Shown one piece after another: positions 52,902-62,445 of a DNA stretch of 64,000 nt; the first letter of the stretch is position 1; every line of letters begins with the position of its first letter. Source of the stretch: Prochlorococcus marinus XMU1408 (GTDB lineage: Bacteria > Cyanobacteriota > Cyanobacteriia > PCC-6307 > Cyanobiaceae); the NCBI RefSeq assembly GCF_003208055.1, contig NZ_QJUE01000002.1, positions 310,001 to 374,000 of the forward strand. The letters run 5' to 3'. The notes beneath the pieces are model-generated. The model did not search any database. It had not been told where the DNA came from and was given only the letters and a program-made list of their open reading frames with translations. The translations under genes and the position numbers were made by a program.

Positions 52902-53918
52902 TTATTTATTTATGTATATTGTTTGAGTTGGATATGCAAAACTTATATTTTCAATTTGAAACTTTTTCATTATCTCCAGATTGATTTCCTGTTGAGCTGA
53001 CATTGCTTGAACGTAATCACTTGTTGGTATGTAATAAACAAGTTCAAAATCAAGGCTGCTATTTGCAAATTCGATAAAATGACATCTGTCAAAGATCGCA
53101 TTTTCAGTTTTATCAACGATATTTTTAATCATTTCAGGTATATTTTTTGTCTGCTCATATGTGGTTTCATATACCACTCCTAATTTGTGAACAAGTCTTC
53201 TTTGCTTCATCTCAGCATAATTTGAGATAACCCCATTTGTTAGACGGCTATTGCTCATAACTATTGCTTCTCCATTAATGCTTCGCAAGCGTGTTGATCT
53301 AACACCAACGCTCTCAACTTTTGCCCATATTCCATCAATATGAATAAACTGACCACTTTGAAATGGTTTGTCAAGAAGGATAGTGATGTATTCGAAGAAC
53401 TCTTGAACTGGCTCTTTTAAGGCCAGGCCAGCCCCAATACCTCCTGCACTTAAAAGAGCCCAAATTGCTGCCATTTGGACACCCATATTTTGTAGATAAA
53501 AAATAACTCCTATACTCCAAACAGATGCCCCAACCATTGGACTAAGTGAACGAATCATTTCACTGATCGATTGATCATTGATTTTGCTTGCCCATCTTTG
53601 AATTATTTTTAAAAAGACTCTATTTACAAATCGAACTAAATAAATAAGGCAGATAAATTTGCTTATGCCAATTAATGTTTTATCAACTATTCCACCAATT
53701 AATAGAACTTTCCATCCAATTATAAAACTTAAGATAAACCCTAAAGGCTTAATAGTATCAATTAAAAGAGAAGCTATGTAGTCATCAGTTTTGCTTTGAG
53801 TAGCTGATGTTATTTTCCTTAAAACTTTTTTTAAAATTTTTGGACTTACTAGAGAAATAATACAACCAATACTAAAAGTAAGTAATGAAATTATTAGGTT
53901 TTTATAAAAATCATCCAT
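52902..53918 (-). CDS. Mechanosensitive channel of the MscS family
   Basis: A small-conductance mechanosensitive channel for osmotic down-shock release. The 338-residue protein has about four hydrophobic segments; the pore-lining helix is 'SAGGIGAGLALKEPVQEFF' near residues 157-175, and the beta-domain follows with 'VESVGVRSTRLRSINGEAIVM', abridged, 'NSRLTNGVISNYAE'. ATG 53918. It would suit a cell that holds compatible solutes, such as those implied by the StpA-like gene nearby. Confidence 0.9.
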   Translation of the reverse strand: MDDFYKNLIISLLTFSIGCIISLVSPKILKKVLRKITSATQSKTDDYIASLLIDTIKPLGFILSFIIGWKVLLIGGIVDKTLIGISKFICLIYLVRFVNRVFLKIIQRWASKINDQSISEMIRSLSPMVGASVWSIGVIFYLQNMGVQMAAIWALLSAGGIGAGLALKEPVQEFFEYITILLDKPFQSGQFIHIDGIWAKVESVGVRSTRLRSINGEAIVMSNSRLTNGVISNYAEMKQRRLVHKLGVVYETTYEQTKNIPEMIKNIVDKTENAIFDRCHFIEFANSSLDFELVYYIPTSDYVQAMSAQQEINLEIMKKFQIENISFAYPTQTIYINK

Positions 53919-55203: not shown

Positions 55204-56148
55204 TCAAGTTAATTCTCCTCCACAACTAGAACCAGCTCCAGCAGTGCATCCGAAACAATGATCGCCTATTGCAATAGGGTTGTTTTTTAATGAGACTAGT
55301 GGAATCAATAGATCATCCAAATGCTTTATATTGCCCTTTTTCCTGATCCCAAGTTGTTGGTTGAAATCGCAGTCATACAAATGCCCTTTCCAGTCAACAC
55401 TAAGAGTTGTCTTACACATTACTGAGTTAAGATTTCTAGAATTATGATTATCGTTAAGTAATTTCTTATATTCCTTTAGTTTCCCGATTACATTTAAATA
55501 TTTTTCATATCTATTGATTGGCATATTTGCTAAAACAAATAAATTAGAGAAATAGATGCCATGCCTTTCCTTTAGTTCGTGCCTATAAATATCTTCTAAT
55601 TCTTTCTGGGATGGTGGTAGCTCTGGACCACTTGGGTTATAGACTAAATTTAATATAAGGCCTTTATTCTTAATACCGTATCCATAAGAGTTAAGTTGTT
55701 TGAGCGCAAAAATACTTTTTTCAAAAACACCTTTTCCTCTTTGTTTGTCTACATTACCTTGTAGATAACATGGAAGAGAAGCCGTTATCTGTACTTTGTT
55801 TGATGCTAAAAAACTTGCTAAGTTTTCATGACCTGGCTCAGTAAGTATAGTTAAATTGCATCTATCCATAACTTCAACATTAAGACTCCGAACTTCTTTT
55901 ACTAATTGTTTAAATTTAGGATGAAGTTCAGGAGCACCTCCAGTAATATCTAACATTTTAATATTGTTAGCTTTGATAACTTTTGGTATAAGTTTTATAA
56001 TATCACTGCTCATCATCTCTGTTCTATTTGGGCCAGCATTAACATGACAATGGCTACATGATTGATTACATTTATAGCCTATATTTATTTGTAAAGTATC
56101 AAGATAGTCTCTTTTTATCTTGGGGAACTTTGTTTTAATTCTGTCCAT
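55204..56148 (-). CDS. arsS: ArsS-like radical SAM protein
   Basis: A 314-residue radical SAM enzyme. The cluster motif is C27xxxC31xxC34 ('CNQSCSHC'), with 'LDITGGAPELHPKF' after it. The C-terminal half is the ArsS-type domain (DUF3641): 'LASFLASNKVQITASLPCY', 'CDFNQQLGI', and the end 'HCFGCTAGAGSSCGGEL'. ArsS is implicated in arsenosugar synthesis from methylated arsenic. No ArsM methyltransferase is adjacent. It converges with fur, 11 bp apart. The arsenic role is inferred from family. Confidence 0.85.
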   Translation of the reverse strand: MDRIKTKFPKIKRDYLDTLQINIGYKCNQSCSHCHVNAGPNRTEMMSSDIIKLIPKVIKANNIKMLDITGGAPELHPKFKQLVKEVRSLNVEVMDRCNLTILTEPGHENLASFLASNKVQITASLPCYLQGNVDKQRGKGVFEKSIFALKQLNSYGYGIKNKGLILNLVYNPSGPELPPSQKELEDIYRHELKERHGIYFSNLFVLANMPINRYEKYLNVIGKLKEYKKLLNDNHNSRNLNSVMCKTTLSVDWKGHLYDCDFNQQLGIRKKGNIKHLDDLLIPLVSLKNNPIAIGDHCFGCTAGAGSSCGGELT

Positions 56149-56238: not shown

Positions 56239-57438
56239 CTAAAAGTTTCTAGCTAATTTTTTAAACCACTCTATATATTCTTCTGGACCATCATTAATCA
56301 CCATATTGAACTTTAGATCATCATTAGGATCACTAATTCCTCTCATGTCAGAGCCAGAGATTCGTGGTCTCAATACTTGATCATTACAGCTATTCACGAA
56401 TATAACTTGATTCGTTTTTTTGTATGATTCTCCTAATCTTTGAATCAATGTTAAGAATCCTCTGTCGCTTCCGCCTCTTTGCCAGACGTTGTTTTTAGTG
56501 TCTTTTGAACTTGTAACTGTATCACCAACACCTATGAGCATAGGCATTTGATCAATAGGAATCTCATCTCTGCATAAGTTTACTAATTCTTTAAGTGTCT
56601 TTGGAGCATCTCTAACGTTGAAATTTTTTCCAAAAGGGTATGTTCCTGTTTTATTGGATATGTACTTATTTAAGAGTAATAAAAGACCTGCTTCTTTTAT
56701 TGCGCCATTAATAATAAACTGAATATCTGTTGTCCCAAACTCATTTTTAGTTGCATATTTCATTATCTCTGTGCCTTCTTTTAATCCTAGATTAGGCATC
56801 ATATGTAGATAAAAGGAATTTTCTAATCCATAATTGTTCGATTCTTTTAGTATATTATTCATTATCTTTTCCATAGTTAATTGTAAATCTTTTACTTTCT
56901 CGAAATCTGCTTTTACGTAGGTAAAAATTTCATTGAAGTTTAATGTGGGAGTGAAACGAGTATCACATATAGCTACGTCAATCAATTTAGTTCTTTCTTC
57001 GTTTGACAGGTTAGGTAAAAATATTTGTAATTCTTTAGTTAACATTGATTTCATCATCTTTGGCACTTTTGCTAAAAAGTTAATCTCTTTATCTTTGAGT
57101 CCTGGATGTGATGAATTACCAAACCTGTCTTGAAACTCAACTCCGCAGGCGGCAAGGCCAGGCAAATAAAGTCCATTTTCTTTTGCTTTTGTTTTTGAGG
57201 CAAGTGCTTTTTCAACTAATCGATTAACTCCTCTTCTCCCTTCATGTTCGCCACAAGTTAATACTGAAAATTTTTCTCTTAATTTTGCAACAGCATTCAC
57301 ATATTCTTCATTGAGCCTTCTTTTGAGTGGGTCTTGAACTAGAGGAATACATACCCCATCAAGATCCTGAACTATTAGAATATTTTCCTCACTTATTATG
57401 GTGTTAATAACCTCTTCTTTTGTCCGGAAACTCTTCAT
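56239..57438 (-). CDS. stpA: Glucosylglycerol 3-phosphate phosphatase (StpA) homologue
   Basis: A 399-residue HAD-type phosphatase. Visible: the nucleophile motif 'IVQDLDGVCIPLV' (D25, D27), 'LTCGEHEGRRGVNRLVEKAL', 'GVGDTVTSSKD' (acidic motif), and 'RGGSDRGFLTLIQRLG'. In Synechocystis, StpA removes phosphate from glucosylglycerol phosphate, the last step of a salt-stress solute. No GgpS synthase is in the window. It is divergent from the pair at 57602 and 59152, with 163 bp between start codons. Its exact substrate in this organism is unproven. Confidence 0.85.
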   Translation of the reverse strand: MKSFRTKEEVINTIISEENILIVQDLDGVCIPLVQDPLKRRLNEEYVNAVAKLREKFSVLTCGEHEGRRGVNRLVEKALASKTKAKENGLYLPGLAACGVEFQDRFGNSSHPGLKDKEINFLAKVPKMMKSMLTKELQIFLPNLSNEERTKLIDVAICDTRFTPTLNFNEIFTYVKADFEKVKDLQLTMEKIMNNILKESNNYGLENSFYLHMMPNLGLKEGTEIMKYATKNEFGTTDIQFIINGAIKEAGLLLLLNKYISNKTGTYPFGKNFNVRDAPKTLKELVNLCRDEIPIDQMPMLIGVGDTVTSSKDTKNNVWQRGGSDRGFLTLIQRLGESYKKTNQVIFVNSCNDQVLRPRISGSDMRGISDPNDDLKFNMVINDGPEEYIEWFKKLARNF

Positions 57439-57574
57439 TAATGATGCCTTAAAATGTCAATTTAGTCTAGATCAAATAAACTTATAATTCCAAGATAGTT
57501 CTTATTCTTAAATAAGTACATGGATACATATTCATTTACTTTAAAACTATTTTTAAAGTTTTCATATTATTGTA

Positions 57575-57580
57575 TATAAT
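57575..57580 (+). promoter_or_regulatory. -10 box for the 57602 gene
   Basis: A perfect TATAAT lies 21 bases before the GTG start, predicting a short 5' leader. A matching -35 is not evident; a six-base inverted pair (AAAACT/AGTTTT) lies just upstream and might be an operator. Confidence 0.45.
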
Positions 57581-57601
57581 ACTAATGTATGCAAACAAAA
57601 T

Positions 57602-59143
57602 GTGTTTGAAAAGAATTTAACTAATAGCTTCTTTAATGAACCTTATTCAAGTGATCATATAGCTATAAGAATTAATGAGGTTTTAAAAGGAAAAGTAGGA
57701 TTTTATAGTGTTGGCTTATACCCAGCATCTCTTGCTTATAACTGTGCAATGCAAAATAATGATTTAAATATTCTTTTAGCACCTAGAAACGGCAGAGAGC
57801 TTTTTGGAGCTTTTTCTGAGAGAGATCTTTCTGACATGGATAACGACATAAAAAATAAAATTGAATCTATGGCGATTTCATTTGATAATAAATCACGGAG
57901 ATATAATACGCTTAAAGATTTATTAATTAAATGTGAATTAGTTGTTTTAAGTTCAAATAGTAAAAATATTATAAATGATATCAATTTCGCTTTTAAACTA
58001 AGAAAAGAACTTGATCGTGAAAATGTTCTAATTGCCTGCTTAGTAGGTTCATTTTGTCATGATAATGATTTGAATGAGTCTTTTGTATTATGCGAAAAGT
58101 TAAATAATTTGGCTTTCTTTTCAGGATTTCATCGTCATGGAGCACTTCGTAATCCTTTAGATAGTTTCACCGCTAATTTTTGTCATCCTGATGCAATGAA
58201 TGCAATATTAGGTGCAAAACTATTGAATAAGATTTCTCCAAATATTCAAGTCTCTGCAGGTGTTCATAATGTTGAAGGTCAATATATAAAAGCAGCTAAA
58301 AATATTTCTTCAATTTTAGCCGGTTTTGGTCATACTTATCATAAGAAAAATCCTGGATTGCTTCCAACTTTATTAACTCTTTTATTAGATCAATGCCTTG
58401 ATCAGGCTGCCTATGTTTCTATGAGTCGAGAAGATAGAGAGAATTTATACAAAAAACAACCTTTTCCTATTACTGAACTTGGATATGGCGTTCAACTTAT
58501 AGAAGCTTCTCTTTATAAGGATGGAAATTTTGTTCAAGTAAGAGACCATACTTTTAGTCAGTTGAAGGCAATGGTTGCCGATGTTAGGGGAAGCATGATG
58601 CTGCCTGTAAGTGGTAGCCCAACAAGAAATTTTCAAGCTGGGGAGGTCTTGGCTGAAAAGATGATTGAACATAAAAGATGTCCTTATGGGGTTGAAGAGT
58701 TTCTTGTATGGTGTGAAAATTCTGGACTTAAAAGAGGAGCTTTAGAAGGTATTAATTCTCTAAATTATTGGCCAGATATAATTAAAAAATATTTAATACC
58801 ATTAAATGATTCCTCAATGATTAATCTTTTATATATGTGTATAATGGGTCCTATAGATATTAAAGATGATATTTATAATGTTATGACTAATAGTCGTGAA
58901 CTAACAAATTACTGTCAGGAGTCTGTTAAATCATTTCATAGTAAAAAAATATCAGATTCTCTAAATAACTTTCATTTAAAGATAGCAATGGATTTCATTG
59001 CGGGTTCACTGACTGACCAAGATAGTTTATTTTTTGAATCCAATGATATTAATTTTACAGATCCTGTAGAATTAGAAAATAAACCAATTTATAATAAGGT
59101 TATAGATTATATAGAAAATTATTTCATTGAAGTTAATCCCTAA
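57602..59143 (+). CDS. Uncharacterised protein with Rossmann/GpsA-like N-terminus
   Basis: I do not recognise a named family. The 513 residues begin with 'GKVGFYSVGLYPASLAYNCA', like a Rossmann phosphate loop with changed glycines. 'CELVVLSSNSKNIINDI' and 'LIACLVGSFCHDNDL' recall the glycerol-3-phosphate dehydrogenase pattern, and 'RHGALRNPLDSFTANFCHPD' follows. The GpsA-type catalytic lysine is not obvious. The C-terminal 200 residues are helical and unusual. Start GTG 57602. Its stop is eight bases before the kinase gene, so they form a unit beside stpA. A dehydrogenase role is inference only. Confidence 0.6.
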   Translation: MFEKNLTNSFFNEPYSSDHIAIRINEVLKGKVGFYSVGLYPASLAYNCAMQNNDLNILLAPRNGRELFGAFSERDLSDMDNDIKNKIESMAISFDNKSRRYNTLKDLLIKCELVVLSSNSKNIINDINFAFKLRKELDRENVLIACLVGSFCHDNDLNESFVLCEKLNNLAFFSGFHRHGALRNPLDSFTANFCHPDAMNAILGAKLLNKISPNIQVSAGVHNVEGQYIKAAKNISSILAGFGHTYHKKNPGLLPTLLTLLLDQCLDQAAYVSMSREDRENLYKKQPFPITELGYGVQLIEASLYKDGNFVQVRDHTFSQLKAMVADVRGSMMLPVSGSPTRNFQAGEVLAEKMIEHKRCPYGVEEFLVWCENSGLKRGALEGINSLNYWPDIIKKYLIPLNDSSMINLLYMCIMGPIDIKDDIYNVMTNSRELTNYCQESVKSFHSKKISDSLNNFHLKIAMDFIAGSLTDQDSLFFESNDINFTDPVELENKPIYNKVIDYIENYFIEVNP

Positions 59144-59151
59144 ATTAAATT

Positions 59152-60315
59152 ATGGATTTATCAAAATTAATTTTTATCACACAAAACTTTTTTACTAATA
59201 CTAAAGTTATAAATATAGATTTTATAAGTTCTGGTTTAATTAATAAGACCTATATAGTTGAACATTTATATAAGGGTATAAAATCTAAATTTATTTTACA
59301 GAGTCTTAGTAATATTTTTGAATCTCCTGAAAAAGTTACAATGAATCATATGTTAATAACTGAGCATCTGAAAAATAAAATTAATGGTGGTTATTTAAAG
59401 TTCGATCAAAAAAGATGGGAAACACCAAATTTAATTAGATGCAAATCAAATAATCTTTTTATTTTCCCTTATCAATCTGAATTTTGGAGAGCGATGGTAT
59501 ATATAGATAAAACTTTTTGCTTGGATGTTTTAGAGGATGATTTAATGGCTTATCAAACAGGTATAGGTCTTGCTAAATTTCATTTATCTTGCTCTGACCT
59601 AGACAGTTCAAAATTAAAAGATAATATTAAAAATTTTCATAACACTAAGTATTATTTAGATCAATATATCATGGCAATTAAAGATTCTATGTATTTAGAC
59701 TTAGACAATGAAATAAAAAAGAGAGTTCAATTTCTAATTATTTCTATATCTAATCATTTAAGATATATTGAAAGATTATTAATATCTTTAAATAAGGAAT
59801 CAATTGATCATAATATTATTCATGGTGATCCTAAGCTAAGCAATTTTCTATTTGACGTTCCCAAAAAGTATGTTGTTTCTTTGATTGATCTAGATACAGT
59901 TTCCTCTGGCTATTTTCTCACGGATTTAGCTGATTGTATTCGCTCAATATGTAATTTGGCTGGCGAAGAACCAGCAAAAAATGAGAATATTTGCTTTGAT
60001 ATTACTTCTTGTAGGTATTTCCTGAAGGGCTATAGATCAATAATGAATGCAAAGCTAGATTCTTCTTTTAAACTTCTTCCTGAGTTTATATATTTATTAA
60101 TATTTGAATTATCGATTAGATTTTTGACTGATTTTTTACAATCAAATAGGTATTTTGAAATTAGATATTCAACTCATAACTTATATAGAGCTGAGGTTCA
60201 ATTTTCTTTACTTTCTAGTTTTCTTGACCAAATGCCTGATTTTTTATTTGTGCTTGATGAAATTGGGATTTCCCCTGGCTCAACTTTTGTCTCAGATGTA
60301 CAAAATTTTGCGTAG
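59152..60315 (+). CDS. APH/NahK-like sugar kinase
   Basis: A 387-residue kinase of the aminoglycoside phosphotransferase fold, closest in pattern to N-acetylhexosamine 1-kinase (NahK): 'ISSGLINKTYIVEH' at residues 25-38, 'FILQSLSNIFESPEKV', the catalytic 'HGDPKLSNFLFD' (H224-G-D226) and 'LIDLDTVSSG' (D246, D248). NahK phosphorylates GlcNAc or GalNAc at C1. The acceptor here is unknown; near stpA it may act on a glycerol- or sugar-type solute. It begins eight bases after the 57602 gene. ATG 59152 follows directly. Confidence 0.78.
   Translation: MDLSKLIFITQNFFTNTKVINIDFISSGLINKTYIVEHLYKGIKSKFILQSLSNIFESPEKVTMNHMLITEHLKNKINGGYLKFDQKRWETPNLIRCKSNNLFIFPYQSEFWRAMVYIDKTFCLDVLEDDLMAYQTGIGLAKFHLSCSDLDSSKLKDNIKNFHNTKYYLDQYIMAIKDSMYLDLDNEIKKRVQFLIISISNHLRYIERLLISLNKESIDHNIIHGDPKLSNFLFDVPKKYVVSLIDLDTVSSGYFLTDLADCIRSICNLAGEEPAKNENICFDITSCRYFLKGYRSIMNAKLDSSFKLLPEFIYLLIFELSIRFLTDFLQSNRYFEIRYSTHNLYRAEVQFSLLSSFLDQMPDFLFVLDEIGISPGSTFVSDVQNFA

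Positions 60316-60370: not shown

Positions 60371-62445
<2,075 letters not shown>

Follow-up and report, generated by a model that had tools for sequence, protein, structure and literature searches.

The locus described here lies in a window of 64,000 nucleotides of Prochlorococcus marinus XMU1408 (contig NZ_QJUE01000002.1, positions 310,001 to 374,000; genome size 1.795 Mb) and comprises three genes (Table 1), encoding: (i) a glucosylglycerol-3-phosphate phosphatase (GgpP, also called StpA), (ii) a protein of 513 amino acids, for which we use the name mid (the middle protein), and (iii) a NahK-like kinase of the APH family. The ggpP and mid genes are placed head to head, and the kinase gene starts 8 bases past mid. 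This arrangement is exactly as described in an earlier reading of the DNA made without database searches (the sequence-only reading). Relatives of all three proteins occur in many genomes, and the three open reading frames (ORFs) are therefore considered genuine genes. Our analyses indicate that mid probably (we would put it at about 0.7) fills the missing step of GpsA, the canonical glycerol-3-phosphate (G3P) dehydrogenase, as a G3P dehydrogenase of the salt-tolerance module that replaced GpsA.

Table 1. Features of the locus, with positions numbered from the first nucleotide of the window.
Feature	Position	Strand	Length, basis or remark
MscS-type channel	52902-53918		~2.3 kb from GgpP
GgpP (StpA), glucosylglycerol-3-phosphate phosphatase family, LTCGEH variant (C62, C98)	56239-57438	-	399 aa; family models
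Divergent intergenic region	57439-57601	.	163 bp; conserved TATAAT box
mid, GpsA-like, proposed G3P dehydrogenase of a new, diverged family	57602-59143	+	513 aa, GTG start; distribution, weak profile similarity, invariant positions
mid residues 33-40 (GFYSVGLY), Rossmann-like start	57698-57721	+	S36, G38 in 61/61 relatives
mid K233-N234, aligned to GpsA K-N	58298-58303	+	profile alignment; 61/61 invariant
mid 317-343: T317-F318, A326-D327, R342-N343, aligned to GpsA TF, GD, RN	58550-58630	+	profile alignment; 61/61
mid E382-G383, aligned to GpsA EG	58745-58750	+	profile alignment; 61/61 invariant
NahK-like APH-family kinase	59152-60315	+	387 aa; Pfam and PDB match

The principal evidence is the distribution of mid and GpsA in a sample of 201 genomes of the same family (Cyanobiaceae), 131 of good quality and 70 of lower quality. 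Across this sample mid was found in 100 genomes, GpsA (PF07479) in 90, GgpP in 104, kinase relatives in 138 and the synthase GgpS in 80 (76 over the cut-off). Among the good-quality genomes, 75 contain mid and 74 contain GpsA: mid stands alone in 55 and GpsA alone in 54, whereas 20 genomes carry both and 2 carry neither (131-75-74+20), compared with approximately 24 genomes with neither that independence of the two genes would predict. The two genomes with neither are presumably G013 (90% complete) and G073 (94% complete), no others of this quality having been seen to lack both genes; in these two, ggpP is located on contigs of 3324 and 3231 bases, respectively, at the contig end where mid should begin. 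One of the 20 genomes with both genes, G069, holds mid as fragments only. In a sample of 386 genomes from the whole phylum, mid was detected in 50, of which 49 belong to Cyanobiaceae; PF07479 was present in 56 of 59 genomes sampled across the phylum, the exceptions being XMU1408, G239 and G235. A model of the N-terminal part of GpsA, run on 15 chosen genomes, recovered true GpsA in four (G102, G005, G083 and G270); the other 11 yielded partial or weak Rossmann matches, which in G003 and G061 exceeded the cut-off but were short.

Bacterial glycerolipids are built on G3P. PlsY, the G3P consumer described by TIGR00023, is encoded by XMU1408 (194.9 bits, cut-off 137.2). Neither in this genome nor in the genus sample (0/10) was there a match to GpsA, to glycerol kinase (GlpK; TIGR01311) or to the C-terminal domain (PF16901) of the flavin adenine dinucleotide (FAD)-dependent G3P dehydrogenase GlpD. 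GlpK and GlpD matches are likewise missing from 27 of the 55 good-quality mid-only genomes, XMU1408 included, and mid is thus the only candidate for making G3P found in these 27 genomes, which have no GpsA match.

The second line of evidence links mid to the glucosylglycerol (salt) module. Of 98 picocyanobacterial genomes holding both mid and ggpP, 82 have the two genes in divergent orientation at most 8 kb apart, and in 66 they are no more than 600 bp apart (distances measured between match ends; in 9 of the 98 genomes the genes are on different contigs). This conserved neighbourhood, which the sequence-only reading had anticipated, contradicts a chance gene cluster. GpsA and mid occur together in 22 genomes; in 21 of these GgpS exceeds the cut-off, and the remaining one, G069, has GgpS fragments; in the latter mid, ggpP and ggpS are all fragmentary, and the GpsA domain is intact. 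Among 68 genomes with GpsA and no mid, a GgpS match was found in five, over the cut-off in two (G102 and G103). The association is not absolute, as G083 has mid and GgpS with no GgpP match, and G102 has GgpS and GgpP with no mid. In genome G064 (locus L067), mid lies inside a salt island with the order htpG, ggpS, a gene for a solute-binding protein, two unscanned genes, a gene for an ABC ATPase and mid, followed by ggpP (divergent from mid), a treS-like gene, a glpD-like gene and glpK. G024 (L073) shows the same succession of GgpS, mid, ggpP, GlpD and GlpK matches inside a 13-kb stretch. The XMU1408 locus resembles the known GgpS/GgpP pathway in the presence of a full-length GgpP beside mid, and differs from it in the sequence variant of GgpP and in GgpS, for which there was no match across the whole genome, as the sequence-only reading had supposed for the locus, or in the genus sample (0/10). 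The classic glucosylglycerol pathway, for which both GgpS and GgpP have to be encoded, is therefore not complete in XMU1408.

The third line of evidence is a faint likeness of mid to GpsA (PF01210 and PF07479; solved structures 3k96, 1z82, 1evy, 1txg and 1x0v), which is the closest known system. No Pfam family and no sequence match in the PDB were found for mid, a PDB search with its profile gave no match either, and the two NCBIfam matches obtained (pyruvate kinase and citryl-CoA lyase, E 0.02-0.06) are far below the cut-off, so that a kinase or lyase identity of mid was rejected. When 61 mid proteins were scored with a profile built from 37 canonical GpsA sequences, the result was a median of 4.2 bits and a best of 10.6 bits, compared with 4.5 bits for the best of 1830 shuffled and 0.7 bits for the best of 61 reversed mid sequences. 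Profile-profile alignment of the two families is colinear over 255 columns (mid 102-430) and pairs K233-N234, D327, R342-N343 and E382-G383 with their GpsA counterparts, at a probability of only 3.2% (P 0.014); 2 of 300 column-shuffled controls reached the same score, and the longest shuffled alignment covered 199 columns. In a preceding comparison based on a smaller set of sequences, 134 columns of the N-terminal part were aligned (probability 2.4%). The KN, TF, D327, RN and EG positions are identical in 61/61 relatives, including that of the distant, out-of-family genome G270, and the K-N, D, R-N and EG residues of GpsA are ascribed catalytic roles in work on GPD1. In a low-confidence model, mid starts with a beta-alpha-beta unit and is helical towards the C-terminus, as in GpsA. 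The sequence by itself thus suggests, without proving, that mid and GpsA are related.

Taken together, these data favour the following scheme. mid would be an NAD(P)H-dependent dihydroxyacetone-phosphate reductase forming sn-glycerol-3-phosphate, a strongly diverged relative of GpsA that came from the marine glucosylglycerol gene set, where it would have supplied GgpS with G3P. After the loss of canonical GpsA in marine picocyanobacteria, mid would have been the sole enzyme of this kind, feeding membrane lipids via PlsY; core Prochlorococcus would then have lost GgpS, GlpK and GlpD, and mid could not have been lost. The fold, reaction and cofactor of mid and the order of the gene losses are what we infer here. 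The simplest joint reading of the distribution would be that mid makes G3P: cells with GpsA can do without it, GgpS profits from it, and it becomes essential once GpsA, GlpK and GlpD are all missing.

A number of observations weigh against this scheme. Within mid itself, (i) of 34 members searched, just two matched PF07479 (best E 0.0087), two matched the GpsA model NF000942 (best E 0.03), and seven matched an unrelated haloacid dehalogenase (HAD) model (best E 0.0044); (ii) hmmsearch aligned two short stretches only, which included RN and in neither case the KN motif; (iii) the hhalign probability of 2.4-3.2% (P 0.014-0.019) is not significant alone, and a global alignment of mid with GpsA gave no result; (iv) the GxGxxG motif is absent, the corresponding loop being S36-V-G38-L-Y-P41 with G at the second place only (S36 and G38 in 61/61 relatives, P41 in 59/61); (v) the lysine of the GpsA KG motif, presumably human K120, is replaced by V/A/S148, with the following G retained; and (vi) AlphaFold2 models built with 22 close relatives are poor (pLDDT, the predicted local distance difference test score, 46.4 for the full length and 41.7 for residues 26-439), and Foldseek found no match of the full-length model at E <= 0.001, the best being the arogenate dehydrogenase 2f1k at E 6.8e-3, above the threshold. 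For this reason no claim about the fold is drawn from the model. Outside the protein, 31 of the 70 lower-quality genomes contain, by arithmetic, neither mid nor GpsA, which incompleteness may account for; the genomes are related, so the distribution counts are not independent; and the out-of-family genomes G239 (99% complete) and G235 (87%) have neither PF07479 nor mid matches, so the absence of PF07479 alone does not imply mid. The search for other G3P sources was limited to GpsA, GlpK and PF16901; uptake, salvage, phosphodiesterases, glycerol-1-phosphate dehydrogenase and a GlpA lacking PF16901 were not searched. Finally, all 27 good-quality mid-only genomes without GlpK and GlpD matches retain GgpP in the absence of GgpS, a retention for which a role of mid in lipid synthesis gives no reason.

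The HAD matches are read as chance, though not disproved, given that a Pfam scan of the same 34 members found no HAD family. Since the family-model, loop and lysine tests did not identify mid as GpsA, we do not class it as a member of the GpsA family, and our claim, with the probability given above, is that it works like GpsA. The sequence-only reading had seen GpsA-like pieces behind a Rossmann-like start: the weak profile similarity and the invariant aligned positions sustain this part, whereas no family model passed its cut-off, GxGxxG is lacking and structure prediction added no match. mid also differs from GpsA in its length (about 500 residues vs. 303-342 in most canonical ORFs) and in the motifs FHRH (61/61) and DSFTANF, which are its own; the points in common are the colinear pairing of KN, D, RN and EG, in an alignment of low probability, and the complementary distribution.

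The retention of GgpP speaks for an alternative, on balance unlikely, in which mid and GgpP make a solute without GgpS: mid would provide G3P, and an altered GgpP would convert it into glycerol or act on another glycerol-phosphate glycoside. Yeast and Dunaliella make glycerol by dephosphorylating G3P. The Dunaliella G3P dehydrogenase 6iuy, a fusion with a HAD phosphatase that serves glycerol production, resembles the present locus in pairing a phosphatase with a G3P-dehydrogenase-like protein; here the two are separate divergent genes, and 6iuy ranked 34th in the Foldseek search (E 0.24, not significant). The GgpP of XMU1408 is well above the equivalog cut-off of its family (TIGR02399, 549.6 vs. 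365.5 bits; PF09506, 575.5 bits), which upholds the family assignment of the sequence-only reading, and the DxD residues D25 and D27, presumably the catalytic motif of HAD phosphatases, are invariant among 52 aligned sequences. In Synechococcus WH8102 the GgpP gene is SYNW0860 (PMC2874817), next to which a homologue of mid would be expected. In core Prochlorococcus (g1, g11, g18 and g4), GgpP carries LTCGEH and C98 in all 36 sequences counted (15 genomes and the 21 loci L001-L021, partly overlapping), whereas in GgpS-containing genomes it carries LTNGEH and G98 in 28 of 28 sequences from 18 genera, with LTCGEH/C98 in none. The change of residues 62 and 98 to cysteine suggests a new substrate or a new control, a point in favour of the solute alternative. 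The 43 GgpP sequences with both cysteines form one clade (support 0.73), so the change is a single event on one branch, and GgpS-less genomes of g30 (two) and g37 (one) retain the old motif. Moreover, the ggpP-mid pair also occurs with GgpS in many genomes, which makes a new pathway unnecessary, and in the accessible part of the literature searched there is no mention of glycerol accumulation in Prochlorococcus.

It is decidedly unlikely that mid serves the glucosylglycerol module as an oxidoreductase with another substrate, and that core Prochlorococcus obtains G3P from another enzyme or by uptake. In its favour, mid tracks GgpS in all 22 GpsA-containing genomes with mid (in one as fragments), and its Rossmann loop and the substituted lysine are atypical of GpsA. 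Such a role would not account for the preservation of mid in the 27 good-quality genomes without GgpS, GlpK, GlpD or GpsA matches, and G102, with GgpS and GgpP and no mid, indicates that the module can dispense with mid when GpsA is present.

The kinase was considered as a further member of the set, a sugar-1-kinase recycling the sugar of the solute, which appears quite improbable. It belongs to the APH family (PF01636, 35.6 bits vs. cut-off 23.2), and among solved structures it is closest to N-acetylhexosamine 1-kinases (4wh1, E 1.8e-23, residues 9-357 of 387; also 4ocj), which corroborates the NahK-like assignment; the similarity is distant. Of the 100 genomes with mid, 62 have the kinase gene downstream of mid at a distance of up to 8 kb, and in 46 the distance is at most 600 bp. 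Its relatives are, however, present in many genomes without mid and were not found in 14 of the 100 mid-bearing genomes, including all nine g18 genomes, which keep the ggpP-mid pair. In three loci (L061:9044-13011, L059:8495-12542 and L064:9687-13634), a gene pair lies between mid and the kinase; that of L061 is SbcCD-like (a Rad50/SMC-like protein and a calcineurin-like phosphoesterase), and the genes at this place in L059 and L064 are of similar size. The kinase is a loose partner of the ggpP-mid pair. From the modified three-gene solute route proposed in the sequence-only reading there remains the conserved ggpP-mid pair; the route is unproven, and G3P supply is the simpler explanation.

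It is very unlikely that in core Prochlorococcus the dismantled salt pathway became a glycerol pathway in which mid, as a new G3P dehydrogenase family with an altered active site, makes all G3P and the C62/C98 form of GgpP, with a possible redox switch, releases glycerol or a different polyol from it under light control. A catalytically dead mid that served the salt module as regulator or scaffold, to which the degenerate GxGxxG loop and the lack of a family match over the cut-off might point, is extremely improbable in view of the many polar residues that are invariant among members sharing 49-84% identity with mid (including KN, D327, RN and FHRH in 61/61 relatives), which are expected of an active enzyme.

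The proposed role of mid as a substitute for GpsA bears on a gap visible in published surveys, as far as the parts seen show. In a 2012 comparison, EC 1.1.1.94 was not annotated in the compared Prochlorococcus strains and Synechococcus Syc7803 (PMC3369817), and in a 2022 survey gpsA was reported for freshwater and subcluster 5.2 brackish strains, the FAD enzyme (glpA type) for marine and brackish strains, and glycerol kinase for all brackish and marine isolates surveyed (PMC9361551). GgpS was found to co-occur with a G3P dehydrogenase of EC 1.1.5.3 (PMC5862535). Genomes without GlpD and GlpK matches, such as XMU1408, are left without a recognised source of G3P. mid is not named in the parts seen of PMC6753628, PMC9361551, PMC9606707, PMC10654061, PMC9948718, PMC5217662, PMC3369817, PMC5862535, PMC7393227, PMC12834511 and PMC2874817, and our literature search, which covered few subscription papers, found no published description of it. 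With mid as a named candidate, the EC 1.1.1.94 gap becomes directly testable. If the proposal is true, a salt-tolerance gene took over an essential housekeeping step, and its assignment would help to complete the metabolic models of very abundant phototrophs.

A homologue of mid (55% identity) occurs outside the family in G270 (L148:8706-10214), alongside that genome's own GpsA. No GgpP match was found within the 19 kb read around it, and its neighbours encode an amine oxidase, an aminotransferase, a sodium:alanine symporter and a TetR regulator. This copy possibly stems from horizontal transfer. Viral contigs scanned with an alignment of 34 mid sequences contained no relatives.

The closest relatives of mid in the genome collection are encoded in 21 Prochlorococcus loci (L001-L021; 79-84% identity), which share a fixed gene order: mscS, isochorismatase, fur, arsS, ggpP, mid, kinase, a conserved unknown gene, metY and metA. 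All ten genes are present in 20 of the 21 loci; L015, whose contig starts inside the block, is without mscS only. Much of the mscS-to-metA order is retained in several other genera. The MscS channel of XMU1408 (Table 1) had been noted as a neighbour in the sequence-only reading and is confirmed. In all 11 aligned sequences of the ggpP-mid intergenic region, a TATAAT box is located about 21 bp upstream of the GTG codon of mid, with the box-region sequence ATTGTATATAAT in 10 of them and ATTGTCTATAAT in the remaining one; its position implies that the leader of a mid transcript would be very short. The gene adjoining ggpP (55204-56148) encodes an ArsS-type arsenosugar radical SAM protein (TIGR04167, 446 bits), and a gene of this type stands beside ggpP in many related loci, some of them from GgpS-containing genomes. 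Downstream of the kinase, positions 60371-61066 encode a protein of 231 amino acids with no Pfam family; in several genera its gene is likewise conserved on the stretch from the kinase (or mid) to metY.

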